Assembly (NCBI GenBank): GCA_002633115.1
Contig: NWBJ01000034.1
Span: 98,211 to 148,891, forward strand
Direction: 5' to 3'
Origin: Muribaculaceae bacterium Zag1
Lineage (GTDB): Bacteria > Bacteroidota > Bacteroidia > Bacteroidales > Muribaculaceae
DNA: 50,681 nucleotides
The notes under the pieces: model-generated
Told to the model about the DNA's origin: nothing
Seen by the model: the letters and a program-made list of their open reading frames with translations, nothing else
Databases searched by the model: none
In this document: in pieces, positions 433 through 33,213 of the stretch
How the letters are laid out: each line of letters starts with the position of its first letter
How positions within the stretch are numbered: position 1 is the first letter of the stretch
Position numbers and translations under genes: made by a program

Positions 433-2301
433 TTATTTGATTATAACCTTTTGGGCTTTAGATCCTGTAACTTTTATGCAAATGGTGCCTACCTGAGGAT
501 TCATAACTTCTGTGCCTTGAAGGTTGAAGTAACGGTTTTCTTCATTTTCATCCATAGTTATCCCAGCTATGCTCAAGGTCTCAATGTACAAGAATTCTTT
601 CCATCCATTAGCCTTTTTATAAAGATCTAAGGAATTAGCGGGTACATGTAGCACACAACTCCATTTATCTATGCTTGACAAGGCATAAGATTCACAGGTA
701 GGAGGAGTGGGATTAAATGAATACAAATCTTTTAAATTGGAACAATTTGAAAAAGCATATTCTCCAATAGAGGATACAGACTGCCCTATTTCAACAGTAG
801 CAAGTTTGGTGTCATTAGCAAAAGCGTATTTCCCTATAGATGCTACATTGTCACCTATAGCGCATGCAGTTAGAGAATTACAACTTTCAAAAGCATAAGA
901 CCCTATATTTCCCCTATTATCCACAATTATAGACTCGAGGTTTGTACAGTTTTGTGCGAAATTGTCTCCTACTGAAGCATTGGTCTTATCTATATGGATG
1001 GTTTTGATATTGGGGTTGTTGTATAGAGTATACGGAGCTAGTTCTGTTATTGTAAAATCTATTTCTCGGTATGAGGATTCAGTGGGGATGTATATATTCT
1101 CAATTTGAGGAGTATAATAGCAATCGAGAGCCAGGCAGGTTCTATCTCCTAAGGACAGGGGTACATATATCACTCCGCCATTATCATAATAAGATGCAAT
1201 GTTTTCCAAAATTCGAATATCGCCCAATTTAGATGAGTAGGTTTCGTAACTATTATTAGGCACATAAGTAATGTTGTCCTTTAGTGTGTATTGAACGCTA
1301 AAATTCTTAATGCCCGTAGGTGGAGTGCTTGGGAGGAGAAGTAGTTTTCGCATAGAGTCTCCACCTATATCTCCAGTTGTTGTGACATTAGCGCCCATTA
1401 TGAGGGAAGAAAGATTGGTTCCATTACACTGAACCTTCACTGATTCTGCAGTCTCGCCCAAAATCAATTGGCGTAGAGAATTTGTTAAAATGTATGTTGT
1501 TGAGGAAAGTTCTGTGCAATTGATGGTTACGGTTTGCAGTTTCTCTGTGTCTTTAAAGGTGTCAGAGGAGGACGAAGTACCCCCTATTTTATAACATTTT
1601 TTCGGGAAGGTCAGAGAGGCCAAATTCCGATTACCATAGAATGCTCCCTCTACAATTATATAATCATAGGAATAGCCTGGCCATTCCTGCCCCACTTCAT
1701 ACTCTTCTCCCTCTTTGTTTGGAGGATAGAAATATAAATATCTATCAGTTAGATTTGTTTTCTTGAATAGTATTCCATCCTGTGTAAAATAATCACTGGT
1801 AAGAGATGAGGTCTTTTCTATCCTTCCTAAATTTGTACAACCCTTGAAAACCTGGTCTCCTAAAGTTTTAAGGTTCTTTGGAAGAGAGATTGTGGTCAAA
1901 GAACTGCAGTTCTGAAAAGCAGAGTAACCTATGGACTCTATTTCATCCGGCAACGATATGGAAGTAAGATTTGTGCAGCCTGAGAAAACTGAGTTCCCAA
2001 CGCTAGTGAGAGTGGATGGTAAGGAGATACTAGTCAATAGAGTACAATCCTTAAAGGAACTGGTTTGGAGACCAGTTACAGTCAATGACTTCCCTAAATT
2101 AGTGCAAAAGACCGAAGAAGGGATCGACAGATAACCAGAAGTGGTGGTTGGGACTTTATTCACCTTGCATGTGGTAGCAGTAGAGCTGGTGTACTCATAA
2201 GTTATGCCATCTACTTTAAATGTTAGAGCGGCAAAACTTTTTACACCCATTCCAAGAATAAGAAGGAACAGGAGTGTGTGGAGGTAGATCTTTCTGTTCA
2301 T
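433..2301 (-). CDS. BspA-like leucine-rich repeat (LRR_5) surface protein
   Basis: Predicted secreted protein of 622 residues. The start at 2301 (MNRKIYLHTLL) is preferred over an open frame reaching 2436 because it begins a classic signal peptide: a hydrophobic stretch LLFLLILGMGV, then cleavage near SFA-A. From about residue 75 it carries repeats of roughly 23 residues with the pattern C-x-x-L-x-x-I-x-L-P ... I-G-x-x-A-F, typical of the BspA/LRR_5 family, which mediates adhesion or host-protein binding; a second block of the same repeats lies near the C-terminus. It ends with a sorting-tail-like segment (YFNLQGTEV ... KVIIK). Base composition is clearly more AT-rich than the downstream genes, consistent with recent acquisition or a variable surface locus. 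Its ligand cannot be told from sequence. Confidence 0.85.
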   Translation of the reverse strand: MNRKIYLHTLLFLLILGMGVKSFAALTFKVDGITYEYTSSTATTCKVNKVPTTTSGYLSIPSSVFCTNLGKSLTVTGLQTSSFKDCTLLTSISLPSTLTSVGNSVFSGCTNLTSISLPDEIESIGYSAFQNCSSLTTISLPKNLKTLGDQVFKGCTNLGRIEKTSSLTSDYFTQDGILFKKTNLTDRYLYFYPPNKEGEEYEVGQEWPGYSYDYIIVEGAFYGNRNLASLTFPKKCYKIGGTSSSSDTFKDTEKLQTVTINCTELSSTTYILTNSLRQLILGETAESVKVQCNGTNLSSLIMGANVTTTGDIGGDSMRKLLLLPSTPPTGIKNFSVQYTLKDNITYVPNNSYETYSSKLGDIRILENIASYYDNGGVIYVPLSLGDRTCLALDCYYTPQIENIYIPTESSYREIDFTITELAPYTLYNNPNIKTIHIDKTNASVGDNFAQNCTNLESIIVDNRGNIGSYAFESCNSLTACAIGDNVASIGKYAFANDTKLATVEIGQSVSSIGEYAFSNCSNLKDLYSFNPTPPTCESYALSSIDKWSCVLHVPANSLDLYKKANGWKEFLYIETLSIAGITMDENEENRYFNLQGTEVMNPQVGTICIKVTGSKAQKVIIK

Positions 2302-2361
2302 TGCGTCTTTATGCAAAGCGGCCCTCTCTGCTTTAAACAATAAGACAAAAGAAATGCGTGG

Positions 2362-2519
2362 ACCGCTATGCCACGCCTTCTTCAGAGGCCCTGAGATTGC
2401 CTTCGTATACAGATGTGGGTATAGAAGCCCACGCATAGCCGGGTATGCGTGGATTCTACTATGCTTGTCCTTGTATACGATAGAAATTTCTCAGGTTTCT
2501 GAAGACAAGATAAGCATAG
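2362..2519. repeat. Long imperfect inverted repeat
   Basis: The centre is a perfect 9-bp stem, CCACGCATA (2429-2437) with TATGCGTGG (2444-2452), loop GCCGGG. Pairing continues outward with small bulges through AGAA/TTCT, CGTATACA/TGTATACG, CCTGAGA/TCTCAGG, TCTTCAGA/TCTGAAGA and CTATGC/GCATAG, giving arms of roughly 75-80 nt. It lies in the presumed leader of the BspA-like gene. It could be a non-autonomous mobile element (MITE-like), a decayed transposon end pair or a structured RNA. Confidence 0.6.
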
Positions 2520-13226: not shown

Positions 13227-14009
13227 TCATTTTTCATTCTTGGCTTGTTGCCAGATGGCTTCCATCTCGTCGAGGGTGAGGGAGGTGAGGGGGCGCCCTT
13301 GGGCGCGGGCTGCAGCCTCGATGCGGTCAAAGCGCTGGCGGAATTTGCGGTTGGTGCGCTCGAGAGCGTTCTCCGGATTCACCTTGTAGAGGCGTGCCGC
13401 ATTGATTACCGAGAATAACAGGTCGCCAAACTCAGCCTCAATCTTGTCATGGTCGGCAGCCTTGATTTCAGTCTCGACTTCTCCGATTTCCTCCTTTACC
13501 TTGTCCCACACCTGGGCCGGTTCTTCCCAATCAAAGCCGGCGTTGGCAGCCTTTTCTTGCATTCTGAATGCCTTGATCAGGGCTGGCAGCGCATCAGGCA
13601 CACCCTCGAGCACGGTCTTGTTGCCGCCTTTCTCCTTGAGCTTGATCTGTTCCCAGTTTTGCTCGACCTGATGGGCAGTTTCGGCCTTTACATCGCCGAA
13701 GATATGGGGATGACGGAAAATCAGCTTTTGGTTTAGGCGGTCGCACACCTCGGCAATGTCAAAAGCCTCCTTCTCCTCGCCAATCTTAGAGTAGAACAGC
13801 ACATGGAGGAGCACATCACCGAGCTCCTTGCATATATTGGTGTTGTCCTCATCGAGCAGAGCTTGGGCCAGCTCATAGGTCTCTTCGATGGTGTTGGGGC
13901 GCAGGCTCTCGTTGGTCTGCTTAGCATCCCAGGGGCATTGCACCCTGAGGATATCGAGAGTGTCGAGGACGCGGCCAAAAGCCGCCAGCTTTTCTTCTTT
14001 AGATTTCAT
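13227..14009 (-). CDS. mazG: Nucleoside triphosphate pyrophosphohydrolase MazG
   Basis: Hydrolyses (d)NTPs to NMP and pyrophosphate, cleaning nucleotide pools. At 260 residues from ATG 14009 (MKSKEEKLAAFGRV), it has the usual two tandem MazG domains. Domain 1 shows EETYELAQALLDE then KELGDVLLHVLFY, the E-x-x-E ... E-x-x-D metal-binding pattern. Domain 2 shows KEEIGEVETEIK and AEFGDLLFSVIN. The 24-residue upstream extension in the open frame is translated spacer repeat and was rejected. topB begins about 75 bp downstream. Confidence 0.93.
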   Translation of the reverse strand: MKSKEEKLAAFGRVLDTLDILRVQCPWDAKQTNESLRPNTIEETYELAQALLDEDNTNICKELGDVLLHVLFYSKIGEEKEAFDIAEVCDRLNQKLIFRHPHIFGDVKAETAHQVEQNWEQIKLKEKGGNKTVLEGVPDALPALIKAFRMQEKAANAGFDWEEPAQVWDKVKEEIGEVETEIKAADHDKIEAEFGDLLFSVINAARLYKVNPENALERTNRKFRQRFDRIEAAARAQGRPLTSLTLDEMEAIWQQAKNEK

Positions 14010-14178: not shown

Positions 14179-16155
14179 TTATTTGCTGTAATTGGTGAGG
14201 CCAAGCTCAAGCCAATCAAGGAATTCTTGTACGTTTTCGTTGTAGTCGCGCGGCGCTGCCAGAGGCTTGCCATCATTGTCGAGCAGCACATAGTAGGGCT
14301 GAGAGTTGATTCCGAACTTGTAGCGCTGCAGATAGCTCCACTTGTCGCCAACGGTCTTGATCTTGGTGGTCTTGCCGTATTCCTCGACAGTGTAGGGCTG
14401 AGGCAGAGGAGCCTTCTCATCGACAAACAGACGAATCAGCACATAATCCTCGTCGATAATCTGCTTGACATCAGGGGTGTCAAATACGGCCATCTCCATC
14501 TTGCGGCAGTTGACGCATCCGTAGCCGGTGAAGTCGACAAACACCGGTTTGCCTTGCTCGCGAGCTACGCGCATTCCCTCTTCGAAATCCGAGAACTCAT
14601 GCTGCTCGCCGCCATAGAGGTTGAAATCCTGAGTGCTCAACGGCGGAGCGAATGCGCTGATGGTCTTGAGGGGTGCGCCCCACAGACCGGGCAGCAGATA
14701 CACGGCAAAGGCGAAGGAGATAGTGGCGAGGAAGAATCCAAACACTGAGGTATGTTTCTGTTCGCTGTCGTGCGAGAAGCGGAGTTTGCCGAGCAGGTAC
14801 ATGCCGAGCAGCGAGAAGAGCACAATCCAGAGGGCTACGAATACCTCGCGGTCGAGAATGCGCCAGCCATAAGCCAGGTCGGCAACCGAGAGGAACTTGA
14901 GCGAGAGGATAAGTTCGATAAAGCCAAGCACCACCTTGACCGAGTTGAGCCAGCCGCCGCTCTTGGGCATCCCTTGCAGGAAGCTGGGGAAGATGGCAAA
15001 CAGAGCAAATGGCAGAGCCAGACCCAGAGCAAAACCGCCCATGCCGACAGCTGGGCCGATGATGCTGCCCTCTGATGCTGCCTCGACCAGCAGGGTGCCG
15101 ATGATGGGGCCAGTGCAAGAGAATGATACCAGCACCAGGGTGAAAGCCATGAAGAAGATGCTGATAAAACCAGTGGTTGTCTCAGCTTTCTCATCAATAG
15201 CGTTGCTCCACTTTGAGGGTAGCTTGATCTCGAATGCTCCGAAAAAGGATATTGCGAACACCACAAGGAGCAAGAAGAAGAGGATATTGAATATCGCTGA
15301 GGTAGCCAGTTCGTTGAGCTTGCTGGCGCCGAATATCAGGGTGATGGCCAGACCGAGCACCAGGAAGATCACAACGATGCTGAGGCCGTAGATAATAGCG
15401 TTGATGATCGACTTGTGACGCTCCTTTGAAGTCTTGAGAAAGAAGCTGACCGTCATCGGGATCATGGGCCATACGCAGGGGGTGAGCAGAGCGAGCAGAC
15501 CGCCACCGAAACCCATCAGCAGGATGTACCACCAGGGCGAGGCGCTGACAGCAACCACTGCGGCATTGTTGAACTCCTCATCGACCGGTTCCCACCAAGC
15601 GTTGGGAGCATTCTCGAGAGCGGCAGATGCCGAGGGGGCTTCGATTACCTCAGTGGCAGCATAAGCGGCCACAGCCGGATTGCCAAAGGTGAGTGCAAAT
15701 TCCTCAGTCTCGGGCTTGGTGCATGAGGTAGCGTTGCAAGCCATGTAGGAAAATTCGCCTACCAGATTGGCACCTTGCACTCCATCGACCAGCTTGAACT
15801 CCTGGCGGAAGCTCACTTGGCCTTCCCACCAAGGAATTTCGGCATTCATGATTGGGTCGAGATGCACCTGCGAGGGCTTGGAAGGCACAACATCGCCAAC
15901 CAGCTCGAGGCCTGGCACCGAGTTGATGGTGAATGATGTGAGGGTCAGAGGTATGTCGAGACCCTTGGGCATCTCCATGCCGTAAATGTGCCAGCCGTCT
16001 TCGATATTGGCCGACCATACGATGGCGCCCTCGGTGGGAGACTTAGTCTCAAGCTCAGTATTCCACGTGACATGCACGGGCATAGGTGCGCCCTGAGCCG
16101 AAAAGCCCAAGGCACAGAATATGGCGAAAAACGCCAGTGAGAGGCGGTCACGCAT
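14179..16155 (-). CDS. dsbD: Thiol:disulfide interchange protein DsbD
   Basis: Passes reducing power from cytoplasmic thioredoxin across the inner membrane to periplasmic thiols. Order of parts: signal peptide (MRDRLSLAFFAIFCALGFSA); N-terminal DsbD-alpha domain (about 25-165) with the Cys pair in YMACNATSCTKP; about eight membrane helices with Cys in LLALLTPCVWPMIP and LVSFSCTGPIIG; and a C-terminal thioredoxin-fold domain with GYGCVNCRKME (about residue 547). All six redox Cys are present. At 658 residues it is longer than E. coli DsbD, as usual in Bacteroidota. It follows a lone DsbD-alpha-like gene after 3 bp. trxB, at 23.1-24.0 kb, could supply the electrons. Confidence 0.93.
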   Translation of the reverse strand: MRDRLSLAFFAIFCALGFSAQGAPMPVHVTWNTELETKSPTEGAIVWSANIEDGWHIYGMEMPKGLDIPLTLTSFTINSVPGLELVGDVVPSKPSQVHLDPIMNAEIPWWEGQVSFRQEFKLVDGVQGANLVGEFSYMACNATSCTKPETEEFALTFGNPAVAAYAATEVIEAPSASAALENAPNAWWEPVDEEFNNAAVVAVSASPWWYILLMGFGGGLLALLTPCVWPMIPMTVSFFLKTSKERHKSIINAIIYGLSIVVIFLVLGLAITLIFGASKLNELATSAIFNILFFLLLVVFAISFFGAFEIKLPSKWSNAIDEKAETTTGFISIFFMAFTLVLVSFSCTGPIIGTLLVEAASEGSIIGPAVGMGGFALGLALPFALFAIFPSFLQGMPKSGGWLNSVKVVLGFIELILSLKFLSVADLAYGWRILDREVFVALWIVLFSLLGMYLLGKLRFSHDSEQKHTSVFGFFLATISFAFAVYLLPGLWGAPLKTISAFAPPLSTQDFNLYGGEQHEFSDFEEGMRVAREQGKPVFVDFTGYGCVNCRKMEMAVFDTPDVKQIIDEDYVLIRLFVDEKAPLPQPYTVEEYGKTTKIKTVGDKWSYLQRYKFGINSQPYYVLLDNDGKPLAAPRDYNENVQEFLDWLELGLTNYSK

Positions 16156-17570: not shown

Positions 17571-20500
17571 TTAATTTTTAACTGTTTGGAGTAGGGTTTC
17601 GACGGCGCGGCGGAGCTGGGTGTCTTCGCCACGTACGATGTCGGCGGGATTGTTCTCGACTGGCACGTCAGGCTCGAGTTGGAAATTCTCAAGATAACGG
17701 CCCTCGGCGGTGCGATAGCCAATCACCGGAATTCCGAAATACAGGGTGGGGTCTTGGAGATATACCCAATTGACCGAGGTCATAGTGCCTGGCACGGGGC
17801 TGCCGACCACCTTACCGAGGCCCATGGTCTGGTATACCCAGGGTGTGCCGTGAGCATTGGAGTAGCACGATGGGTTGGTCACCATCACAGATGCCTTGTT
17901 CCAGCGGCGAGAAGGCATATCGCAGATATCTTGGCCGCGCAGCACCTGGGTCAGATACTTCTTGCCAGAGAATAGGATCTCGATGTCTTCGTGCATGCGG
18001 CCGCCGCCGTTGTTGCGGATGTCAATCACGATGCCGTCGCGGTCATTGTATTTGCCGAGGATATCGGCGTAGATGGGACGGAAACTGTCATCGCTCATCG
18101 ATTTGATGTGCACATAGCCCAGGCGCCCATTGCTCCAGCGGTCAACATCGGCAGCGCGGGCCTTGACCCAGCGGTCGTAGAGCAGGTTGGAGAATTTGGT
18201 CGCGGTGATGGGTTTGACTACTTCGTCCCAGAGCAGACCGGTGGCTGGGTCGCGGAAACTTACCAGCACCTTCTTGCCGCTTTGGTCGAGCAGGAGTTGG
18301 GTTAGGTCATTCTCGGGCGTAATCTCGATGCCGTTGATTTTCTCAACCAGCACGCCGGGCTTGACGCGGGTTGAGGCGTTGTCAAATGGCGATTTCTCAA
18401 CCACTTCGGCAACCTTCATGCCATCGCCATTGTATGTGAGGTCGTAGAGCAGACCGAGCGAAGCGGTAGATTCGCCAGTGGGTGAGGGACGGTAACCGGC
18501 TCCGGTGTGGCTCACGTTGAGTTCGCCGAGGAGCTCGCTGCCCATCTCTGCGAAGTCGTAATTATTATTAATGTAAGGCAGGAATCGGCGGTAGTTGTCG
18601 GTCAGGGCCTTCCAGTCCACGCCGTGCATCTTGGTGTCATAGAATCGGGCTTGCTCCTCGCGCACAATGTATTCGTACATGTATTCGCGCTCCTTGGCTG
18701 GATCGATGCGGTACGAGGCCGAATATTTCACCGGGGTGAGCTTGCAACCCGAGGGCTCAAATTTGTTGATAGTCTTTCCGCTGAGCAGCATGGTCTTGTA
18801 GTCGGGAGTGTAGTCAAATGCTTTCAGGCCCTTATTGATGGTCTTAGACATTTCGACTTCGCCCTCGCGCAGGTCGAGTTTCCAGAGCATATTGTCTGAC
18901 GACCCCTTGGTGATGAAATACAGGTTGTCGCCATCCTTATTAATAAAGGCATCGGCAAGGTCGGCCGAGAAGGGAGTCAGGCGCACCACGCGGTCCTGGA
19001 TGCCCTCGAGTTCGACAACGATGTCCTTGGGAGTGTCCTTCTTGTCTTTGTCTTTGTCATCTGATTTCTTGTCATCCGACTTCTTTTCATCTTTCTTTGC
19101 GTCCTTCTTGAGTTCGGCATCCTCTTTTGAGAGCTTGAAATCATCAAGAGCCTCTTGGTTGAGGAACGCGAGCATCACATCTTCTTGCGAACCCCACGAA
19201 GCCTGGTTGCGCATGCCGTAGCGGTCACTGAAGAAAAGGATGGCGTTGCCATCGAGGGCCCAACGCGGGTGAGCGTCAAAATAGCCGCTCTGTGATATGT
19301 TGGCAGATTCGCCCGTGGTGGCATTGAGGAGGATAATATCGTAATAGGGGGCGTGGAGGCGGTCGCAGCCGCACGTCACGATCCACTTGCTGTCGGGGCT
19401 CCATAGGATTGTCACATCGCCCTCGTAGTCATCAACCCAGGTGCCATCGGTGAGTTCGGTCACCTTGCCCGATTCCATATCGCGCACAGCCACCTTGCGG
19501 CGGTCGAGCAGGAAAGCCATCTTCTTGCCATCTGGCGAGATTTGGGGTTGGCAGCGCTCGTGTGAGTCGGCCTTGAATATAGCCTTCTCCTCAATCAGGG
19601 TAGCGTTGGGGAAGTTTGGGTCCTCGGTGCGGCCCATCTTGGCCTGGTAGATATTGTACTTGCCATCGCGCTCTGAGGTGTAGAATAGGCTATTGGAATC
19701 ATGGCCCCAAGCCACTTGCTTTTCGCCCTCGGGGGTCGAGGTGATTTGCTTGGTGGTCTGATGTTCGACCGAGGTCACGAACACATCGCCGCGATATACC
19801 ATCGCTACCGACTTGCCATCGGGCGAGAGTGCAACTTCGTCGGGATTGCCGAGCGAAATCTTGCGAGTGTCGTCAATCCAAGGGTCGACGAGCGAGATAG
19901 CGACCTTGGCCGGCTTGCCGCCTTGGGCCATGGTGTAGATTTCGCCATTGTAGGTGAAGCAGAGAGTGCCATTGTCGGCGCGAGACAGGAATCTCACTGG
20001 GTGAGTCTTGAATGTGGTCACTTGCTGCGGAGCCGAGGCGTCGGCCACTGAGGCGCGATACACATTCATCGAGCCGCCATTTCGCTCGCTCAAGAAATAA
20101 ATCTCGCTGTCAGATACGGCAACCGGATTGCGGTCCTCGCCAGCATGGGCAGTCACATTGGTGTGGGAGCACGAGGCTGGGTCGTACATCCAGATGTCGC
20201 GAGCTACTGACGAGGTATGATGCTTGCGCCATTCGTTTTCGTTGCCAGCCTTGTTCTCATACAGCATTTTGCCATCAGGCAGGAAGCTGACAGCAAGGGC
20301 CGGCGTGCCAAGCACTTGGCGCGTCTGGCCTCCGGTGACAGGCACCTGATACAGCTCAGTCATGCCGGCAGCCGGGAACATTGCCGAGGAGGCTGGGTCT
20401 TGGATTGAGGCTGAGAAAAGCACATACTTGCCATCGGCCGAGAAACCCTCGGGGAGCTCGCGAGCCGAATTATAGGTGAGGCGCTTGGGAGCACCGCCGG

Positions 20501-20777
20501 TGGCGGGGATGACGAATATGTCGAAATTGCCATAACGGTCGCCAGCGAAGGCAATCGTCTTGCCATCGGGGCTCCAGATTGGCGAAGTCTCATAATTATC
20601 GGTGGCAGTTAGGCGCTGAGCTTCGCCGCCAGCGGCGGCAACTTTCCAGATGTCGCCCTTGTAGGTAAAGGCGATTTGGGAGCCGTCGGGCGAAATTTGA
20701 GCGTCGCGGAGCCACAGAGGGGCCTCGGCCCAAGCGAGGGCCGGAAGCAGCAGAAGGGTGAGCAAAGAATGTTTCAT
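17571..20777 (-). CDS. Tricorn-like protease (S41 family), exported
   Basis: A 1068-residue protein with signal peptide MKHSLLTLLLLPALAWA. Residues of about 20-540 form WD40/TolB-like beta-propeller repeats (ISPDGSQIAFTYKGDIW, WSPDGKTIAFAGDRYG and similar). A tricorn C1-like part follows, with ELNVSHTGAGY supplying the candidate catalytic His, then a PDZ domain (about 770-850). The S41 protease core shows DIRNNGGGRMHED, the nucleophile Ser in NPSCYSNAHG, and Glu in GRYLENFQ. An odd feature is a low-complexity Lys/Asp insert at about residues 549-586 before the core. Tricorn-type enzymes degrade peptides; here the signal peptide puts it in the periplasm. The start has a promoter-like box immediately upstream. 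Confidence 0.9.
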   Translation of the reverse strand: MKHSLLTLLLLPALAWAEAPLWLRDAQISPDGSQIAFTYKGDIWKVAAAGGEAQRLTATDNYETSPIWSPDGKTIAFAGDRYGNFDIFVIPATGGAPKRLTYNSARELPEGFSADGKYVLFSASIQDPASSAMFPAAGMTELYQVPVTGGQTRQVLGTPALAVSFLPDGKMLYENKAGNENEWRKHHTSSVARDIWMYDPASCSHTNVTAHAGEDRNPVAVSDSEIYFLSERNGGSMNVYRASVADASAPQQVTTFKTHPVRFLSRADNGTLCFTYNGEIYTMAQGGKPAKVAISLVDPWIDDTRKISLGNPDEVALSPDGKSVAMVYRGDVFVTSVEHQTTKQITSTPEGEKQVAWGHDSNSLFYTSERDGKYNIYQAKMGRTEDPNFPNATLIEEKAIFKADSHERCQPQISPDGKKMAFLLDRRKVAVRDMESGKVTELTDGTWVDDYEGDVTILWSPDSKWIVTCGCDRLHAPYYDIILLNATTGESANISQSGYFDAHPRWALDGNAILFFSDRYGMRNQASWGSQEDVMLAFLNQEALDDFKLSKEDAELKKDAKKDEKKSDDKKSDDKDKDKKDTPKDIVVELEGIQDRVVRLTPFSADLADAFINKDGDNLYFITKGSSDNMLWKLDLREGEVEMSKTINKGLKAFDYTPDYKTMLLSGKTINKFEPSGCKLTPVKYSASYRIDPAKEREYMYEYIVREEQARFYDTKMHGVDWKALTDNYRRFLPYINNNYDFAEMGSELLGELNVSHTGAGYRPSPTGESTASLGLLYDLTYNGDGMKVAEVVEKSPFDNASTRVKPGVLVEKINGIEITPENDLTQLLLDQSGKKVLVSFRDPATGLLWDEVVKPITATKFSNLLYDRWVKARAADVDRWSNGRLGYVHIKSMSDDSFRPIYADILGKYNDRDGIVIDIRNNGGGRMHEDIEILFSGKKYLTQVLRGQDICDMPSRRWNKASVMVTNPSCYSNAHGTPWVYQTMGLGKVVGSPVPGTMTSVNWVYLQDPTLYFGIPVIGYRTAEGRYLENFQLEPDVPVENNPADIVRGEDTQLRRAVETLLQTVKN

Positions 20778-20781
20778 ACTA

Positions 20782-20789
20782 CAAAATTA
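20782..20789 (-). promoter_or_regulatory. -7-like box (TAATTTTG) abutting the tricorn-like start
   Basis: The complement of CAAAATTA fits TAnnTTTG and lies only 5 bp from the ATG. If used, transcription would begin at or next to the start codon, giving a leaderless or nearly leaderless mRNA. No supporting -33 box was confirmed. Confidence 0.35.
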
Positions 20790-20958
20790 CGAAAAAAATA
20801 TGAGATTATTTCGGGTTTGCACACAAAAAAGGAAAAATAGATGAAGAAATATTTGTTGAATAATTCAAAAATGGATAAATTTGCATAAAAATTACGATTT
20901 TTAGATTTCTAAAATAAATCTAAGCCCAGATAACGATTAAAAGACGCCAATGTATTTG

Positions 20959-20990
20959 AACCACAGATTTACACAGATTCACACAGATTC
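20959..20990. repeat. ACCACAGATT dispersed repeat upstream of the methyltransferase
   Basis: AACCACAGATTTACACAGAT followed by TCACACAGATTC, the family also at 4379-4430 and 14056-14157. It is in the 264-bp divergent gap between the tricorn-like protease and the methyltransferase, 52 bp upstream of the latter's ATG. Apart from this and the -7-like box at 20782 the gap is AT-rich without clear signals. Confidence 0.6.
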
Positions 20991-21041
20991 GGCCATGGAA
21001 TCTGGGAATATCCTTATAACTTTTACCTTGCAGATGCCATT

Positions 21042-23069
21042 ATGGTCATAGAGAACTTTAGATTTGTCGATCTCTTCTGTGGTATAGGCGGTTTTCACCA
21101 GGCCATGACGGCTCTTGGTGGTGAATGTGTCTTCGCTTGCGATATCGACGAGGCTTGCCGAGAGACATATTACAGCAACTACGGGTTGATGCCCGTAGGG
21201 GACATCAAGAAAGTAGACCCGGCCGACATACCCGAGCATGAGGTGCTGTGCGGGGGGTTCCCTTGCCAGGCCTTTTCGATAGCCGGCAAGCGCTTAGGAT
21301 TTGGCGATCCCACCAAGGGCACACTCTTTTTCGACATAATGCGCATTGTGCATTACCATCACCCCAAATACATACTGCTCGAGAATGTGCGCAATCTGGC
21401 CTCGCACGACCATGGCAATACCTGGAAGATAATCCACCAGAGCCTGATTGATGCCGGGTATAATGTGTCGGAGAAACCGGTAATCTTTTCACCCCACTAC
21501 ATAGGCATACCCCAGCATCGCGAGCGAGTGTTCATTATGGCGGTGAGGAAAGATGTAGGGCAGTTGCCCGAGTTTTTCTTCAATCGGCGCCGCGCCAAGC
21601 CCTGCTCTATCTACACTGTGCTGCAAGACGATAGCGAGATCAAGAATGTGCAACGCTACCGCATGAAGAAACACGACATCGAGATTGTAAACCTGTGGAA
21701 CGAGTTTCTTGCCGGAATACGCAAGAATGTCAAGAAGCTGCCGTGTTTTCCGGTGACTGACCTGTACCTCTTCCCCAATCTCGACCGCTTTGACATCCCC
21801 AATATGCACTATGAGAAGGCAATGTTTGCAAGGCGCAACGTTGAGCTATTCAACAAGGCTCCAGCCTTCATCACTCGCTGGTTGTCAAGGGCTTACGAGT
21901 TGCCAAAATTTCGAGGCTCAAAGCGAATGCTCGAGTGGCATGCCGGCAATCCTCAGAATCCCGACCTGTGGGAGACAGTGCTGCAATTTCGCCAGTCAGG
22001 CATCCGCGCTCGCGAGGCGCACGTATTTCCCACGCTCACGGCAGTTGTGCAAACCCCGATTGTGGGACGATTCAAACGCAAACTCACGCCGAGGGAGTGC
22101 GCCCGGTTGCAGAGTTTTCCGGATACCTTCAAGTGCAATCCCAAGGAGCATGAGGCATACAAGCAATTTGGCAACTCGGTCAATGTCGAGGTTGTGAAGC
22201 TGTTTGCCCGTTTCCTGCTCGGCGATGAGGAAATGCACAACATCTATCGCAAAACCGAGGAGGACCTGCTCGAGGAAATGCCCAAGAAGCGCGGCCGTCC
22301 GCGCAAGGTGTATTCGCCCGGCCAAGAGCCTAAGCGCGGTCGCCCACGCAAATATCCGTTGCCCGAAGATGGCGAACCCCAGCCCAAACGCAAACGCGGT
22401 CGTCCGAAGAAACAGCCAGTGGAGATGTCAGTGATGTTTGACGAGGACGGAAACCCCATAGTGCCGCCAAAGCGCAAACGCGGACGGCCGAGAAAGTATC
22501 CAATTCCTTCGCTCTTTGATGAGATTGCGCTAACCCCGGTACCAGTGATCGAGGAACCGCTGCCCGAACCAGAAGAGGAAGAACTTGACGATATTATCGA
22601 GCAGGCTGAGGAGATTGAAAAACTCGTGATGCTCGATGACTCGGATGTTGTGCATGAGAATACCGAGGATGTCGATGCCGAGGAGGCAGCCGAACTGCTT
22701 GAGGCCCTCAACGAAGAGGTCGAAGGCACTGATGCCCAGCCTGACGAGGACGACAACCTGGGCCATGACTTGGACTATTGGTTTGAAGAGCGCGAACGAC
22801 TTGAGGCCCTGAATCAAGTGCTGCTTGCCGAGGACAAAGAGCGTCGAGCCATAGCTCGCGCCAATGGCTATCGCAAGAAAGACCCGAATCAGCCGCCTCG
22901 CAAACGAGGGCGCCCAAGGAAATATCCTCTGCCTGAGGACGGAGGACCTCAACCCCCGCGCAAGCGAGGGCGACCCAAAAAAGAAACGCCCCAGCCAGTG
23001 GCTGGAGCGCTCGTGGAGGATGCGCCGCCTAAACGCAAGCGCGGACGTCCCAGGAAAAATCCTTTATGA
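21042..23069 (+). CDS. DNA cytosine-5 methyltransferase with seven C-terminal AT-hooks
   Basis: Transfers methyl groups from SAM to C5 of cytosine in DNA. The catalytic part (about 1-405) has motif I DLFCGIGGF (10-18), motif IV GGFPCQAFS with nucleophile Cys75, motif VI ENV (114-116), motif VIII QHRERVFI and motif X FGNSVNVEVV. The target-recognition region is about 190-330; specificity cannot be read off. Residues 410-675 are a tail unlike ordinary Dcm-type enzymes: seven AT-hook cores RGRP at 417, 432, 452, 480, 622, 642 and 667, in KRGRPRK contexts, four before and three after an acidic Glu/Asp-rich segment (about 490-590). AT-hooks bind the minor groove of AT-rich DNA. No restriction nuclease, Vsr or helicase lies beside it, so it is an orphan; a regulatory or chromatin-like role is my inference. 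It is the only plus-strand gene before 33.6 kb and overlaps trxB tail-to-tail by 6 bp. Confidence 0.93.
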   Translation: MVIENFRFVDLFCGIGGFHQAMTALGGECVFACDIDEACRETYYSNYGLMPVGDIKKVDPADIPEHEVLCGGFPCQAFSIAGKRLGFGDPTKGTLFFDIMRIVHYHHPKYILLENVRNLASHDHGNTWKIIHQSLIDAGYNVSEKPVIFSPHYIGIPQHRERVFIMAVRKDVGQLPEFFFNRRRAKPCSIYTVLQDDSEIKNVQRYRMKKHDIEIVNLWNEFLAGIRKNVKKLPCFPVTDLYLFPNLDRFDIPNMHYEKAMFARRNVELFNKAPAFITRWLSRAYELPKFRGSKRMLEWHAGNPQNPDLWETVLQFRQSGIRAREAHVFPTLTAVVQTPIVGRFKRKLTPRECARLQSFPDTFKCNPKEHEAYKQFGNSVNVEVVKLFARFLLGDEEMHNIYRKTEEDLLEEMPKKRGRPRKVYSPGQEPKRGRPRKYPLPEDGEPQPKRKRGRPKKQPVEMSVMFDEDGNPIVPPKRKRGRPRKYPIPSLFDEIALTPVPVIEEPLPEPEEEELDDIIEQAEEIEKLVMLDDSDVVHENTEDVDAEEAAELLEALNEEVEGTDAQPDEDDNLGHDLDYWFEERERLEALNQVLLAEDKERRAIARANGYRKKDPNQPPRKRGRPRKYPLPEDGGPQPPRKRGRPKKETPQPVAGALVEDAPPKRKRGRPRKNPL

Positions 23070-23996
23070 CTCGCGATTGAGCAAGAAACGCTCAACATCG
23101 AGTGCAGCTCGGCAGCCGCTACCGGCTGCCGATATTGCTTGCTGGTAGCTGGGGTCGCAGACGTCGCCAGCGGCGAATACGCCCTTGATGTTGGTAGCTT
23201 GAGTGCGGCCATGCAGGATGATGTAACCCTCGTCGTCGAGTTCGAGTTGGCCCTTGAATAGTTCGGTGTTTGGCTTGTGGCCGATGGCGAGGAAGAAGCC
23301 GTCGATGGCGATGTCAAAGAAACGCTCGTCGGGTTCGCCTTTGTACTCTACCAGGTGAGCGCCCTCGACATACTCTTCGCCGAAGAGGCCTACAGTGTTG
23401 GTGTTGAAGAGAACCTCGATTTTGTCGTTCTCAAACACGCGCTTTTGCATCACTTTTGAGGCGCGCAGGTAGTTTTTGCGCACGATCAGATACACCTTCT
23501 TGGCTAGGCCAGCCAGATAGCAGGCTTCTTCGCATGCTGTGTCGCCGCCGCCAACCACGGCAACCACGCGGTTGCGGTAGAAGAATCCATCGCAGGTGGC
23601 GCAGGTCGATACGCCCAGTCCGGCATACTTCTTCTCATCGGGGATGCCGAGATAACGGGCATAAGCGCCGGTGCAAACGATTACAGATTCGGCGTGCACC
23701 TCTTCGCGGCTGTCGATGGTGACTTTAAATGGATAATGCTCAAAATCTACGGCAGTTACGCGGCCAGCGCGGATGTCGGCGCCAAAGCGCATAGCTTGTT
23801 TGCGCAGGTCGGCCATCAGTTCCGGGCCGGTGATACCCTCGGGATAACCGGGGAAGTTCTCAACTTCGGTAGTAGTGGTGAGTTGACCTCCGGGCAGATG
23901 GCCCTCGTAGAGCACAGGCTGCAGATTGGCACGCGAGGTGTAAATAGCGGCAGTGAAGCCGGCGGGGCCAGAGCCGATAATAAGGCACTTAATCAT
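23064..23996 (-). CDS. trxB: Thioredoxin-disulfide reductase
   Basis: FAD enzyme that reduces thioredoxin with NADPH in the cytoplasm. At 310 residues: FAD motif GSGPAG (8-13), redox-active CATC (132-135) followed by DGFFYRN, NADPH motif VVGGGDTACEEA, and the C-terminal FAD motif GVFAAGDVCDPSYQQAISAA, all as in the family. It converges with the methyltransferase gene, the last 6 bp being shared. Reduced thioredoxin would feed DsbD (14179-16155). Confidence 0.96.
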   Translation of the reverse strand: MIKCLIIGSGPAGFTAAIYTSRANLQPVLYEGHLPGGQLTTTTEVENFPGYPEGITGPELMADLRKQAMRFGADIRAGRVTAVDFEHYPFKVTIDSREEVHAESVIVCTGAYARYLGIPDEKKYAGLGVSTCATCDGFFYRNRVVAVVGGGDTACEEACYLAGLAKKVYLIVRKNYLRASKVMQKRVFENDKIEVLFNTNTVGLFGEEYVEGAHLVEYKGEPDERFFDIAIDGFFLAIGHKPNTELFKGQLELDDEGYIILHGRTQATNIKGVFAAGDVCDPSYQQAISAAGSGCRAALDVERFLLNRES

Positions 23997-24035
23997 AAGG
24001 TGTTAGGTATTAGTTGTGAGTTAATTTTTTAGTGG

Positions 24036-24119
24036 GGTAGGAATCCTAGGATGCCTATGATTCCTAGTAGGGTAGGATTCCTAGTAGGGTAGGATTCCTA
24101 GGATGCCTACGATTCCTAT
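24036..24119. repeat. AGGATTCCTA direct/inverted repeat array
   Basis: Order A-B-A-A-B, where A is GTAGGATTCCTAG (first copy with AATCC) and B is GATGCCTAYGATTCCTA. A contains the near-palindrome GGATTCCTAG. The array fills the gap between the lolA-like gene and trxB. It has no coding potential and no T-run, so it is not a classic terminator. Confidence 0.65.
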
Positions 24120-24122
24120 AAT

Positions 24123-24737
24123 CTATCTCAGGTCTATTACTGAGGCTTTGGGGTAGGTGGAGTAGGGGAATTGGAATATTGTCTTGGCTGGGACCTTGTC
24201 GAGGCGCTGGTAGCCTGACACCGTGATGTCGAGCTTGGCGTTGTTGGCAAAAGTCGCATCTATCTCAATGGGCAACCAATCTGAGGTGTTGACGATAAGG
24301 GTGGCGCTTTTGACAGAGTTGTTTTTGGCCAGCGGTGTAAGCACGACAGTATAGGTGGTTGGGGTTGAGGTCTTGACCTCGGCCTTGTAATGCGAGGCGT
24401 AGTGATTGATGATGTCAAAGGGGTTGATTTCCATCAATTCCTCGGCAGTGGGTTCGCTCAGCGTCACCTCATTGGTCTTGGTTTGGTAGCTCCACAGCAC
24501 TTCGCCGTCGTACCAGGCGCCAAAGTCGCCGCTATTGACCGAAAATTTCTCTTGGGCCACGGTCAATGTGCCATTGACCTGGGTGCCATCGTTGGCTTTT
24601 GCCACATAGTTGACCGATAGGGCAGGGGAGGAGTCGATGGCTTTGGCGGTATTGGCCAGCACTTGGCTGGCCGTGTACTGGGCCATGGTGCAAATGGCGC
24701 TGAATATTAGGGTAAAGAGGAATAAACAGATTCTCAT
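24123..24737 (-). CDS. LolA-like periplasmic lipoprotein carrier
   Basis: A 204-residue exported protein; start ATG 24737 (MRICLFLFTLIFSAICTMAQ) gives a signal peptide, while the longer frame to 24830 would run into ftsK and was rejected. The mature part has the LolA-like layout: AKAIDSSPALSVNYV at the start, the central GDFGAWYDGEVLWSYQTKTNEV typical of lipoprotein-carrier half-barrels, and ITVSGYQRLDKVPAKTIFQF near the end. It would ferry lipoproteins across the periplasm, matching LolD at 10.0 kb. It starts 70 bp after ftsK and is probably in the same transcript, an arrangement common in Bacteroidales. Confidence 0.8.
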   Translation of the reverse strand: MRICLFLFTLIFSAICTMAQYTASQVLANTAKAIDSSPALSVNYVAKANDGTQVNGTLTVAQEKFSVNSGDFGAWYDGEVLWSYQTKTNEVTLSEPTAEELMEINPFDIINHYASHYKAEVKTSTPTTYTVVLTPLAKNNSVKSATLIVNTSDWLPIEIDATFANNAKLDITVSGYQRLDKVPAKTIFQFPYSTYPKASVIDLR

Positions 24738-30880: not shown

Positions 30881-31912
30881 TTATTTTAGTAATTTTACCT
30901 CGGCATTCATGCCGGAGCGGAGACGAGACATATCTTTAGGGGAGTTGCCCTTGAAGAGGATTTTGACGGGGATGCGCTGCTGGATCTTGACAAAATTGCC
31001 ATTGCTATTGTCGGTGGGGATGGGCGAGAACTGCGCACCGGTTGCTGGCGATATTTGCGAGATATAGCCGTGGAATGTGACACCGGGTATGGCATCGACA
31101 GTGATTTTCACCGAGTCGCCCTCGGCCATTCCGGCTGTCTGTTTCTCCTTGTAGTTGGCAATTACCCACACATCGCTGGTGTCAACTACTGAGAGGAGGG
31201 TTTGGCCTGGCTGCACGAGCTGGCCCGGCAATATGGCTTTGCGCGAGCAATAGCCGTCGCATGGAGCGGTGATGACTGTATATGACAAGTTGAGGCGAGC
31301 CAGGTCAATCTGGGCTTGCGCCAGGTCGACCATGGCATCGTTCTGGCCGAGGCGTACGGTCTGCTCTTGGCCCACGAGCGAAGTCGAGTGCTTTTGGCGC
31401 GAGAGCATATCATATTTGGCTTTCATAGCCTGGTAGTTGGTGGCTACGGCATCGTATTGCTGCTGGGTCACAGCCTCTTGGCGCAGCAACTCGGTGTATC
31501 GGTCGAGTTCTTTCTTGGCATTGTCCATCAGGGCCTTGACCTCGGCGACGGCTGCTTCGTTGACATTGACATTGCTGTTGGTGGTGGTGATTGCTTGGTG
31601 CATAGCTGAGCGGCCAGCCAGGGCGTTTTGCAGGTCGGCCTCGGCTTGGGCCAGGCGCAGCTGATATTCGGCATCCTCGATTACCACCAGGGTATCGCCC
31701 TTTTTGACTGGCGTGAAGTCGTCAAATCTAACCTCGGTCACAAAGCCCTGGACGCGGCTGTTGATTGGCACGATCAGTTGGCGCACTTGCGCATTGTCGG
31801 TATACGTCGATGAGGTAAAGCCGGCGAACATGTACACTACCCAGGCAAGGCCCAGGACAATGAGCACAATTACGCCTATATTTTGCAGCATGCGGCGAGT
31901 TTTCTGTTTCAT
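30881..31912 (-). CDS. HlyD/EmrA-family periplasmic adaptor
   Basis: Membrane-fusion protein that links the inner-membrane pump to the outer-membrane channel. It has a single N-terminal membrane helix (about 11-31), then the barrel-sandwich lipoyl half TDNAQVRQLIVPINSRVQGFV, two long coiled-coil helices (about 75-195), the second lipoyl half APCDGYCSRKAILPGQLVQPGQTLLSVV in successive segments, and a beta-barrel (KITVDAIPGVTFHGYI). 343 residues is standard. Its ATG overlaps the tolC stop by 4 bp (ATGA). Confidence 0.93.
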   Translation of the reverse strand: MKQKTRRMLQNIGVIVLIVLGLAWVVYMFAGFTSSTYTDNAQVRQLIVPINSRVQGFVTEVRFDDFTPVKKGDTLVVIEDAEYQLRLAQAEADLQNALAGRSAMHQAITTTNSNVNVNEAAVAEVKALMDNAKKELDRYTELLRQEAVTQQQYDAVATNYQAMKAKYDMLSRQKHSTSLVGQEQTVRLGQNDAMVDLAQAQIDLARLNLSYTVITAPCDGYCSRKAILPGQLVQPGQTLLSVVDTSDVWVIANYKEKQTAGMAEGDSVKITVDAIPGVTFHGYISQISPATGAQFSPIPTDNSNGNFVKIQQRIPVKILFKGNSPKDMSRLRSGMNAEVKLLK

Positions 31913-33213
31913 AATGTTCCAGAGATGTATTTGAGTTGGAAAAGTGAGATTAGGGTGTTGATGCGAGCGTTGACGAGGCGCGTCTCAGCATCGAGTTTTG
32001 CCGTTGAGGCATCGAGCATGTCGGTGAGCAGGGCAATGTCGTTGCGGAATCGGGTATCGACTATGCGATAGTTCTCGGTGGCGAGTTCGACATTTTTCTG
32101 CTCGGTGGCGAGCATCTCTTGGGCCTGGAGATACAGAGTGTAAGCCTCGTGGATTTTGCGTTCGAGTGCATCGGTGACGGCAGTGCGCTGTTCGGCGATT
32201 TGGGTTATATCCAGGTGCTGCTTCTTCTCGGCCTTGTTTGTCTTGAATAGCGATGACAGTTTGTAACTTACGTTTACGCCCACCAGCCAGTAGTTGTAAT
32301 TCTTGTTGATAGCCGGAATCTCAAATGTCACTGGCCCAGAGATTTGGTCGCGAGCGATAAGGCCGATAGCAGGAAATCGCTCGGCTCGTGTCAGGCGCAG
32401 GGCAGTGTTGGCAATCTCTTTTTGGGCATCGACGGCCTTGAGCTCATGATTGTTGGCCGAGGCGAGGTCGAGCCAGTAGCTTTCGCCTTGGTCGGGCAGG
32501 GGGGTGAGCAGCAGAGCGGAGTCAGGCACAATGCGCGTGTCGGGGCTGAGGCTCAGCATCGATGTCAGGTCGCGGTTGAGGATTGACAGCGAGTTGCGAA
32601 TCGATGTCAAGTCATAATTGAGCGAAGACAGGCGCAATTCGTATCGGGTGATGTCATTTTTCAGCACTGTGCCCTGCTCGTGTCGGGCGCGCATGCTCTC
32701 AAGCAGCTGGTTGGTTACGGCAATGTTCTCGACATACACGCGCTCGAGGTTGCGCATCTTGAAGAGATTCAGATAGGATTGCACCAGCGAGAATCTCATG
32801 CCCGAGCGCTCCATATCCACGCCGATTCCGGCCAGAGCATATTGCTGCTCGGCCATTTTGATGCCCCCAGATATGGCTCCGCCGGTGAATAGGGGTTGGT
32901 ATACATCGAGAGCGAGGGAGTTGCCAAAGTGGGGCAGCTTGTCGCGCATGGCATTTGAGAAATCGCGGTCGAGTATGGTGCCGTCGCCGAGATAATTGAG
33001 AGTCAGGTCGGCTGTAATTTCGGGCAGTCGGGCAGAGCGGGCCACATCGATGCCCTGCTTTGCCACGGCGGCGCGCGCTTGCGAGGCTCGCAGGTCGGCA
33101 TTGCTGCTTTCGGCCTGTTGGAATATCTCCTCGAGGCTGAGATACAGTTCTTGGGCTGGAGCATGTATAGAGAAACATGCCCATGCCGCCGCAAGAATCA
33201 TTTTCTTACGCAT
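31909..33213 (-). CDS. TolC-family outer-membrane efflux channel
   Basis: A 434-residue outer-membrane factor with signal peptide MRKKMILAAAWACFSIHAPA. It has the duplicated helical-coil layout of the TolC/OprM family: repeated long amphipathic helices with Ala/Gln/Glu/Leu heptads and two beta segments (GNSLALDVYQPLFTGGAISG and NYWLVGVNVSYKLSSLF). It is the first gene of the tolC-emrA-emrB operon; the presumed promoter at 33471-33478 gives a leader of about 250 nt that may hold a short peptide. Confidence 0.92.
   Translation of the reverse strand: MRKKMILAAAWACFSIHAPAQELYLSLEEIFQQAESSNADLRASQARAAVAKQGIDVARSARLPEITADLTLNYLGDGTILDRDFSNAMRDKLPHFGNSLALDVYQPLFTGGAISGGIKMAEQQYALAGIGVDMERSGMRFSLVQSYLNLFKMRNLERVYVENIAVTNQLLESMRARHEQGTVLKNDITRYELRLSSLNYDLTSIRNSLSILNRDLTSMLSLSPDTRIVPDSALLLTPLPDQGESYWLDLASANNHELKAVDAQKEIANTALRLTRAERFPAIGLIARDQISGPVTFEIPAINKNYNYWLVGVNVSYKLSSLFKTNKAEKKQHLDITQIAEQRTAVTDALERKIHEAYTLYLQAQEMLATEQKNVELATENYRIVDTRFRNDIALLTDMLDASTAKLDAETRLVNARINTLISLFQLKYISGTL

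Follow-up and report, generated by a model that had tools for sequence, protein, structure and literature searches.

An AT-hook-bearing orphan C5 DNA methyltransferase of a small Bacteroidales clade as a candidate restriction-type enzyme tethered to AT-rich DNA

The bacterial DNA methyltransferases Dcm, CcrM and Dam are orphans, and the gene described here resembles them in being solitary, chromosomal and strongly constrained in its catalytic part. It lies in a stretch of 50,681 nucleotides from Muribaculaceae bacterium Zag1 (contig NWBJ01000034.1; hereafter the window, in genome G000, whose 4.46 Mb assembly is 99.97% complete) and encodes P0001, a C5 DNA methyltransferase with seven AT-hooks in its C-terminal tail; we know of no orphan bacterial DNA methyltransferase with such a tail. 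Of the eukaryotic hook proteins, HMGA2 has three hooks, and HMGA proteins are not known to have an enzymatic domain. HMGA is described as a chain without fixed structure that combines several AT-hooks with an acidic end (PMC4482583); P0001 likewise has hooks and an acidic stretch, but there they are carried by an enzyme. In Myxococcus xanthus CarD, the intrinsically unfolded C-terminal region combines an acidic segment with four RGRP hooks; it binds minor grooves of AT-rich DNA and probably mediates nucleoid localisation and maximises activity, and the folded part, which is not an enzyme, binds RNA polymerase and CarG (PMC4374960). CarD and P0001 both join a folded bacterial domain to a tail of acidic and RGRP-hook segments. 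The xenogeneic silencers H-NS and Lsr2 act on AT-rich DNA, often of acquired origin, with a related motif (PMC7074111); they differ from P0001 in having one hook-like loop together with oligomerisation, and no methylation.

On the enzymatic side, type II C5 methyltransferases partnered with the nuclease MTaX1 share their catalytic domain and family tree with P0001, and their recognition region can be aligned to it (40-42% identity in genomes G377, G1020, G1147 and G935, 32% for the enzyme on contig C69 of G000 itself). In contrast to P0001, they have a nuclease beside them and lack AT-hooks, and the clade of P0001 has departed from their recognition consensus at 9 of 28 positions. On balance, we lean towards the view that P0001 is a restriction-type methylase turned chromosomal orphan, whose specificity has altered and whose HMGA/CarD-like tail is kept by selection as a tether to AT-rich DNA. 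Sequence supports the local orphan context, the selection and the shift in recognition; the DNA binding, the methylated site and a regulatory role are inferred. A preliminary description, made from the letters of the window, knew of no described bacterial methylase with this many hooks. This held within the open-access literature, in which no bacterial DNA methyltransferase with AT-hooks was found described (the search covered neither subscription papers nor general protein databases), but multi-RGRP bacterial proteins as such do exist, CarD with its four hooks being one. The novelty of P0001 is accordingly provisional.

Catalytic domain, hook tail and selection

P0001 matches the Pfam family DNA_methylase (PF00145; 265 bits, residues 6-389) and the NCBIfam model TIGR00675 dcm (262 bits), and its top match among solved structures is the HhaI methylase. 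Direct reading of the protein yielded segments that correspond to motifs I (FVDLFCGIGGF, residues 8-18), IV (GGFPCQ, with Cys75), VI (ENV, 114-116), VIII (QHRER, 158-162), IX (RKLTPRECARLQSF) and X (FGNSVN). Profile scores over the cut-off and the presence of all six motifs place the protein among the C5 cytosine methyltransferases, and the enzyme is complete, with Cys75 in motif IV, as the preliminary description had claimed; that text had also counted seven RGRP cores, and all seven stand where it placed them (Table 1). The intact motifs predict that the catalytic domain would methylate cytosine in a short site of its own. Its best PADLOC match, the DruM2 model PDLC00034 (327 bits), most likely reflects the shared C5 domain, since the neighbours of the orphan, by their Pfam assignments, are not defence-like.

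Behind the catalytic domain, the tail consists of four hooks (residues 414-485), an acidic block (493-592, net charge -37) and three further hooks (619-672). The Pfam AT_hook profile (PF02178) scores 30.2 bits on P0001 against a curated cut-off of 17.4, with three stretches passing singly, and the GRP cores have basic flanks; the form [KR]RGRP[RK]K is common to all seven hooks of G000 and to all five of the orthologue in genome G824. Judged from composition, the tail of G000 and of its counterpart in genome G006 is probably disordered and of HMGA/CarD-like makeup, and the motif suggests that several hooks could bind minor grooves of AT-rich DNA at once. A chance origin of the hooks was rejected: when the residues of the tail were shuffled 100,000 times, 97,204 shuffles contained no RGRP, 2,771 contained one and 25 contained two, and none reached three. 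Recent expansion of a DNA repeat was likewise ruled out for G000, given that Tandem Repeats Finder listed no array at score 30 and that each of the seven RGRP cores has a 12-base coding of its own. A repeat search aligned the G000 hooks as diverged 37-base copies (62-78% alike), and among 147 pairs of hook codons 45 were identical, 92 differed synonymously and 10 changed the amino acid. The hooks of G824 are more alike than those of G000, with three distinct codings among five.

Selection was assessed from NG86 counts between G000 and G006, with 77 codons (11 per hook) treated as hook codons. Residues 1-392 have three non-synonymous and 72 synonymous differences, corresponding to a ratio of non-synonymous to synonymous rates (dN/dS) of 0.009, and the recognition region within them has none and 42. 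The whole tail has 19 and 56 (dN/dS 0.084), all 19 outside the hooks: the hook codons contain no non-synonymous and 12 synonymous differences, the rest of the tail 19 and 44 (p=0.003 per non-synonymous site; p=0.03 on the ratio of counts). For scale, dN/dS is 0.064 for the whole C69 restriction methylase, which belongs to the same family, 0.092 for its nuclease and 0.035 for FtsK, and residues 1-392 of the orphan differ from the whole C69 methylase at p=0.002. These counts reveal strong purifying selection on both enzyme and hooks, and on this pattern of substitutions the hooks are kept by selection. Considering the constraint on the catalytic and recognition regions, we regard methylation as the kept function.

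The main rival explanation is that the tail is a general clamp for affinity and processivity: the hooks would raise non-specific affinity for DNA, and a solitary enzyme in short supply could then methylate every one of its sites to an even degree, with no targeting and no regulation. Sequence alone cannot separate such a clamp from targeting, and we consider it a tentative possibility. It also predicts purifying selection on the hooks, and it agrees with a hook number that varies among the four carriers (7, 7, 5 and 1) while the enzyme stays conserved, but it leaves unexplained why the tail is missing from relatives that share the catalytic domain. Much less credible, and in our estimation very unlikely, is a protein that serves mainly in the nucleoid or in condensates, whose hooks and acidic stretch would form a multivalent polymer like the disordered region of Bacteroides Rho and whose methylation would be secondary. 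Basic and acidic blocks do alternate in the tail, condensation driven by that Rho region is described (PMC13269538), and the Rho of G000 has one hook N-terminal to its RNA-binding domain; however, the strongest constraint falls on the catalytic and recognition regions and the acidic spacer is absent in G824. Rho was the one other G000 gene found with PF02178 at E values up to 1, its single hook (KRKRGRPRK) lying between the Pfam domains Rho_N and Rho_RNA_bind (contig C88, L063:3609-5684). Single AT_hook matches over the cut-off were also seen in G006, G016, G033 and G035.

Orphan context and recognition region

The preliminary description held the enzyme to be solitary, with no restriction nuclease or Vsr gene beside it, and the search of the surroundings bore this out. 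A Pfam scan of twelve neighbouring proteins between positions 13230 and 33213 of the window, plus one at 436-2436, gave no nuclease or Vsr match, and PF03852 (Vsr) had no match in G000. One Vsr gene each was found in G006, G824 and G035, on contigs other than that of the methylase, and in none of the four carriers is a Vsr gene adjacent to the methylase as in a Dcm-Vsr pair. In G824 and G035, 20 neighbouring open reading frames (ORFs) were scanned without finding a restriction nuclease (five ORFs had no match of any kind), and in G006 the downstream side alone could be read, the contig beginning 134 bp upstream of the methylase.

A cognate nuclease encoded elsewhere in the genome had been named in advance as evidence against this interpretation, and it is weakly in evidence: G000 and G006 each encode a single MTaX1 nuclease (contigs C69 and C81), but beside its own methylase and on another contig than the orphan, so that the arrangement of an MTaX1-type restriction-modification system, with the nuclease adjacent, is not that of the orphan. 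A site shared by the orphan and the C69 nuclease appears unlikely, because the nuclease has its own methylase and the recognition region of the orphan has changed. A G000 nuclease of another family may share the site, since several of the 19 PF00145 matches in G000 sit in ordinary restriction systems (HpaII, HaeIII and BpuJI types). These findings bear on a further rival, that P0001 is a protective or backup methylase against the resident MTaX1 system or against incoming restriction-modification elements of related specificity. In its favour, the nuclease of G000 and G006 stands beside a methylase 49% identical to the orphan, and four hook-less relatives in the orphan's own branch of the tree adjoin such a nuclease. 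Conversely, the nuclease family PF20296 was not found in two of the four carriers (G035, 94% complete; G824, 99% complete), the orphan departs at 9 of 28 recognition positions common to 18 other family members, and the hooks are left unexplained; we regard this backup role as unlikely. The search for relatives of the MTaX1 nuclease gave no informative solved or plasmid relative.

The family was compared in an alignment of 22 rows, and a tree was built from the first 430 residues. G231 (near G317; its match counts a stop), G1033 (truncated where its contig ends), G401 and G315 (matching residues 3-198 at most) and the G006 copy of the C69 methylase were left out; G967 and G1020, whose matches count stops, were kept as open frames of 390 and 396 aa, and G174 was shortened by the seven residues that precede its ATG. 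The proteins of the four species with hooks (hereafter the hook clade) form one clade with support 100/100. The surrounding hook-less family mixes solitary methylases with restriction methylases that lie beside MTaX1 (G377, G1020, G1147 and G935), and the sister group of the hook clade is unsettled in the tree.

Within the recognition region, 28 alignment columns are invariant in the 18 family members outside the hook clade, and at nine of these every one of the four hook-clade proteins differs (P256, W258, N273, K296, Q300, P318, K324, A331 and V333). By the same measure, the two catalytic parts have 1 of 63 and 0 of 12 columns changed (9/28 compared with 1/75, Fisher p=2e-5). When each of the 18 other members was left out in turn, 17 showed no change in the recognition region and one showed 2/30, and held-out control clades gave 2/30 (C69+C23) and 1/29 (f93), both on longer branches, and 1/29 (G827+G955). 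In this alignment, change is concentrated where the choice of site is expected to reside; because the recognition region has been rewritten, the orphan probably methylates another site than its relatives do. None of the relatives among the matches listed combined a named site with an alignment covering the recognition region. Such a shift would make the family a clean case of a restriction-type enzyme becoming something else.

Under our preferred reading, a C5 methyltransferase whose family counts MTaX1-partnered restriction methylases among its members would live as an orphan in a small Bacteroidales clade, with a rewritten recognition region that leads its catalytic domain to a cytosine in a site other than that of its relatives. 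Several hooks would grip AT-rich minor grooves and tether the enzyme, and sites next to AT-rich DNA (promoters or acquired DNA, for example) would be methylated first or most stably. A bolder extension, to which we give limited credence, is that of a domesticated restriction methylase whose new site and HMGA-like tail steer 5-methylcytosine to AT-rich, largely acquired or promoter DNA and would so turn base composition into a lasting methyl mark, in the manner of a xenogeneic silencer. Bacterial DNA methylation is currently seen as site-driven, with the recognition domain deciding the place; a selected multi-hook tether, if real, would place on top of this a second layer that follows composition, as in eukaryotic chromatin, and methylation near A/T tracts would depend on the tail.

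Distribution and history of the hooks

All 49 genomes of the genus (37 + 12) were searched with P0001; many are incomplete, so that not all absences are certain. Relatives at E below 1e-150 were present in five of them. G000 and G006 encode 675 aa with seven hooks each, and a 97%-identical protein, whose match starts at the same point as that of G006, occurs in a public Bacteroidales metagenome-assembled genome. The protein of G824 has 526 aa and five hooks (67% identical to P0001), that of G035 has 427 aa and one degenerate hook, KKKGRPAK (66%), and that of G827 has 437 aa and no hook (57%). Among 397 genomes sampled from the family, five additional relatives passed 1e-150 (56-58% identical, 390-434 aa), all without a C-terminal hook, and a sixth, in G1033, is truncated by the end of its contig. 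Of 393 genomes sampled from the order, 14 reached 1e-60, and no hooked frame was seen at their loci outside G000. A phylum sample of 395 genomes, searched with motif X and the first hooks, gave 44 matches at 1e-6, none of which reached the first RGRP outside G000; this search could miss a hook behind a very different linker. Among 175 distinct C5-methylase-like frames from the loci collected, C-terminal hooks were confined to G000, G006, G824 and G035, and two other RGRP/KGRP matches lay before or inside the catalytic domain (the count used a simple motif pattern and frames of at least 200 aa, by which unusual methylases are missed).

The preliminary description had counted loss of the tail in most close relatives as a point against it. 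Within the clade this is not what we see, as three of four members keep five or more hooks and one keeps a single degenerate hook; the gene itself, however, is lacking from most of the genus. The four species, with 7, 7, 5 and 1 hooks, constitute a natural experiment on hook number.

A phage or plasmid origin of the tail was considered and rejected. No phage or plasmid record spans 80% of P0001, and among the matches listed the alignments end at residue 445 or before. On viral contigs, neither a pattern scan with one hook-plus-linker coding nor a scan with P0001 gave a match; a further alignment scan confirmed at least 580 relatives, and the 76 methylase frames read in 80 of their loci were all without a C-terminal hook. 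The top phage match was BK063679.1 (Caudoviricetes sp. vir323, host Methanobacteriales), in which positions 14387-15541 encode an archaeal-virus methylase 45.6% identical to residues 1-393.

The gene stands at different loci in the two halves of the clade. In G824 and G035, it shares a locus with a weak MptE-like match, SurE and GMP synthase; in G000 and G006, it adjoins the same downstream thioredoxin-reductase-like gene, which is present in 46 of the 49 genus genomes (E up to 1e-90) but has the methylase beside it only in these two (among 30 loci, read with flanks no longer than 1.5 kb). The synonymous divergence (dS) of the methylase between G000 and G006 is 0.35, as is that of FtsK, and falls inside the range of ten nearby genes (0.12-0.49), as expected if the methylase has descended vertically since the two genomes split; the C69 restriction methylase has a dS of 0.18. 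For the hooks themselves, scored on the tree as 'five or more hooks', two gains and one gain with one loss in G035 are equal, at two changes each.

Besides the MTaX1 nuclease of two carriers, several observations weigh against a selected tether on a domesticated enzyme. G035 keeps the enzyme with one degenerate hook, and many hooks are therefore not essential to it; the acidic spacer, present in the tails of G000 and G006, is absent from the G824 orthologue. Over the whole methylase gene, dN/dS is 0.040, which is not below that of nearby genes (0 to 0.135, two of them without any amino-acid change), and the value of 0.009 covers residues 1-392 set against the whole of the C69 methylase. The recognition result comes from 22 sequences and one four-member clade whose stem branch measures 0.62, positions 256 and 258, two of the nine, lie near alignment gaps, the deepest split of the family, nine rows against nine, shows 12/48 changed columns, and the tree tool warned of long branches meeting. 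As the halves of the clade have different loci, the gene, on present gene order, moved or was acquired more than once. Comparison of the flanks gave no clear history of the hooks, with identities, out of at most 15, of 2.19 within G000 against 1.91 between, and of 3.80 within G824. Downstream of the methylase with five hooks, at a distance of some 3-5 kb, the G824 contig carries genes for a phage integrase and a resolvase (L163:13540-15581), so that a mobile element has landed near it.

Locus and further observations

The features of the gene are collected in Table 1.

Table 1. Methylase gene of the window and its parts.
Feature	Window coordinates	Strand	Remarks
C5 DNA methyltransferase with AT-hook tail, P0001	21042..23069	+	675 aa; complete ORF
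Catalytic part 1	21042..21566	+	residues 1-175; motifs I, IV (Cys75), VI, VIII
Target-recognition region	21567..22076	+	residues 176-345
Motifs IX-X	22077..22217	+	residues 346-392
C-terminal tail	22218..23066	+	residues 393-675 (283 residues); HMGA-like, basic hooks and acidic stretch
AT-hook cluster 1	22281..22496	+	RGRP at 417, 432, 452, 480
Acidic spacer	22518..22856	+	about residues 493-605
AT-hook cluster 2	22896..23057	+	RGRP at 622, 642, 667

By Pfam, the methylase is flanked on one side by a tricorn-like S41 protease, a CpsB-like protein, DsbD-like proteins and MazG, and on the other by the thioredoxin-reductase-like gene, whose stop overlaps that of the methylase by 6 bp, LolA, FtsK, ribulose-phosphate epimerase and an efflux set. 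The presence of HlyD-like and outer-membrane-efflux genes about 8-10 kb away (window 30881-33213) touches on one more rival, in which the enzyme is secreted and acts in the nucleus of a eukaryotic host, with its basic PKRKRGRPRK blocks, which we take to resemble nuclear localisation signals, as signals for nuclear entry. Bacterial nuclear effectors are described in the literature, yet the efflux set is an ordinary one, no signal peptide was recognised by eye at an N-terminus that runs straight into motif I, and the hooks vary among close species; we hold such a role to be extremely improbable.

The 264 bp upstream of the methylase are 70% A+T, and self-regulation through this AT-rich region was dropped as a candidate, other spacers in the window being equally AT-rich (up to 72%). 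Promoter-like sites (3, against 1.8 in shuffles, standard deviation 1.4) and terminator-like sites (4, against 2.9, standard deviation 1.7) were at chance level, and an Rfam scan of positions 20000-24500 gave no family at gathering score.

G000 and G006 constitute a methylase-rich, enlarged lineage: each has 19 PF00145 matches, some split or partial, compared with 0-8 in 17 other genus genomes tested, and their sizes are 4.1-4.5 Mb compared with 1.8-2.9 Mb in the other genus genomes examined. Directly downstream of the hook-less methylase of G827, a gene of 295 aa (L164:4347-5234), for which no convincing Pfam, PADLOC or PDB match was obtained, is a candidate new nuclease partner. Finally, the window opens with a BspA-type leucine-rich-repeat protein (433-2436, minus strand), and its first 2 kb have 39% G+C, compared with about 53% for the window.

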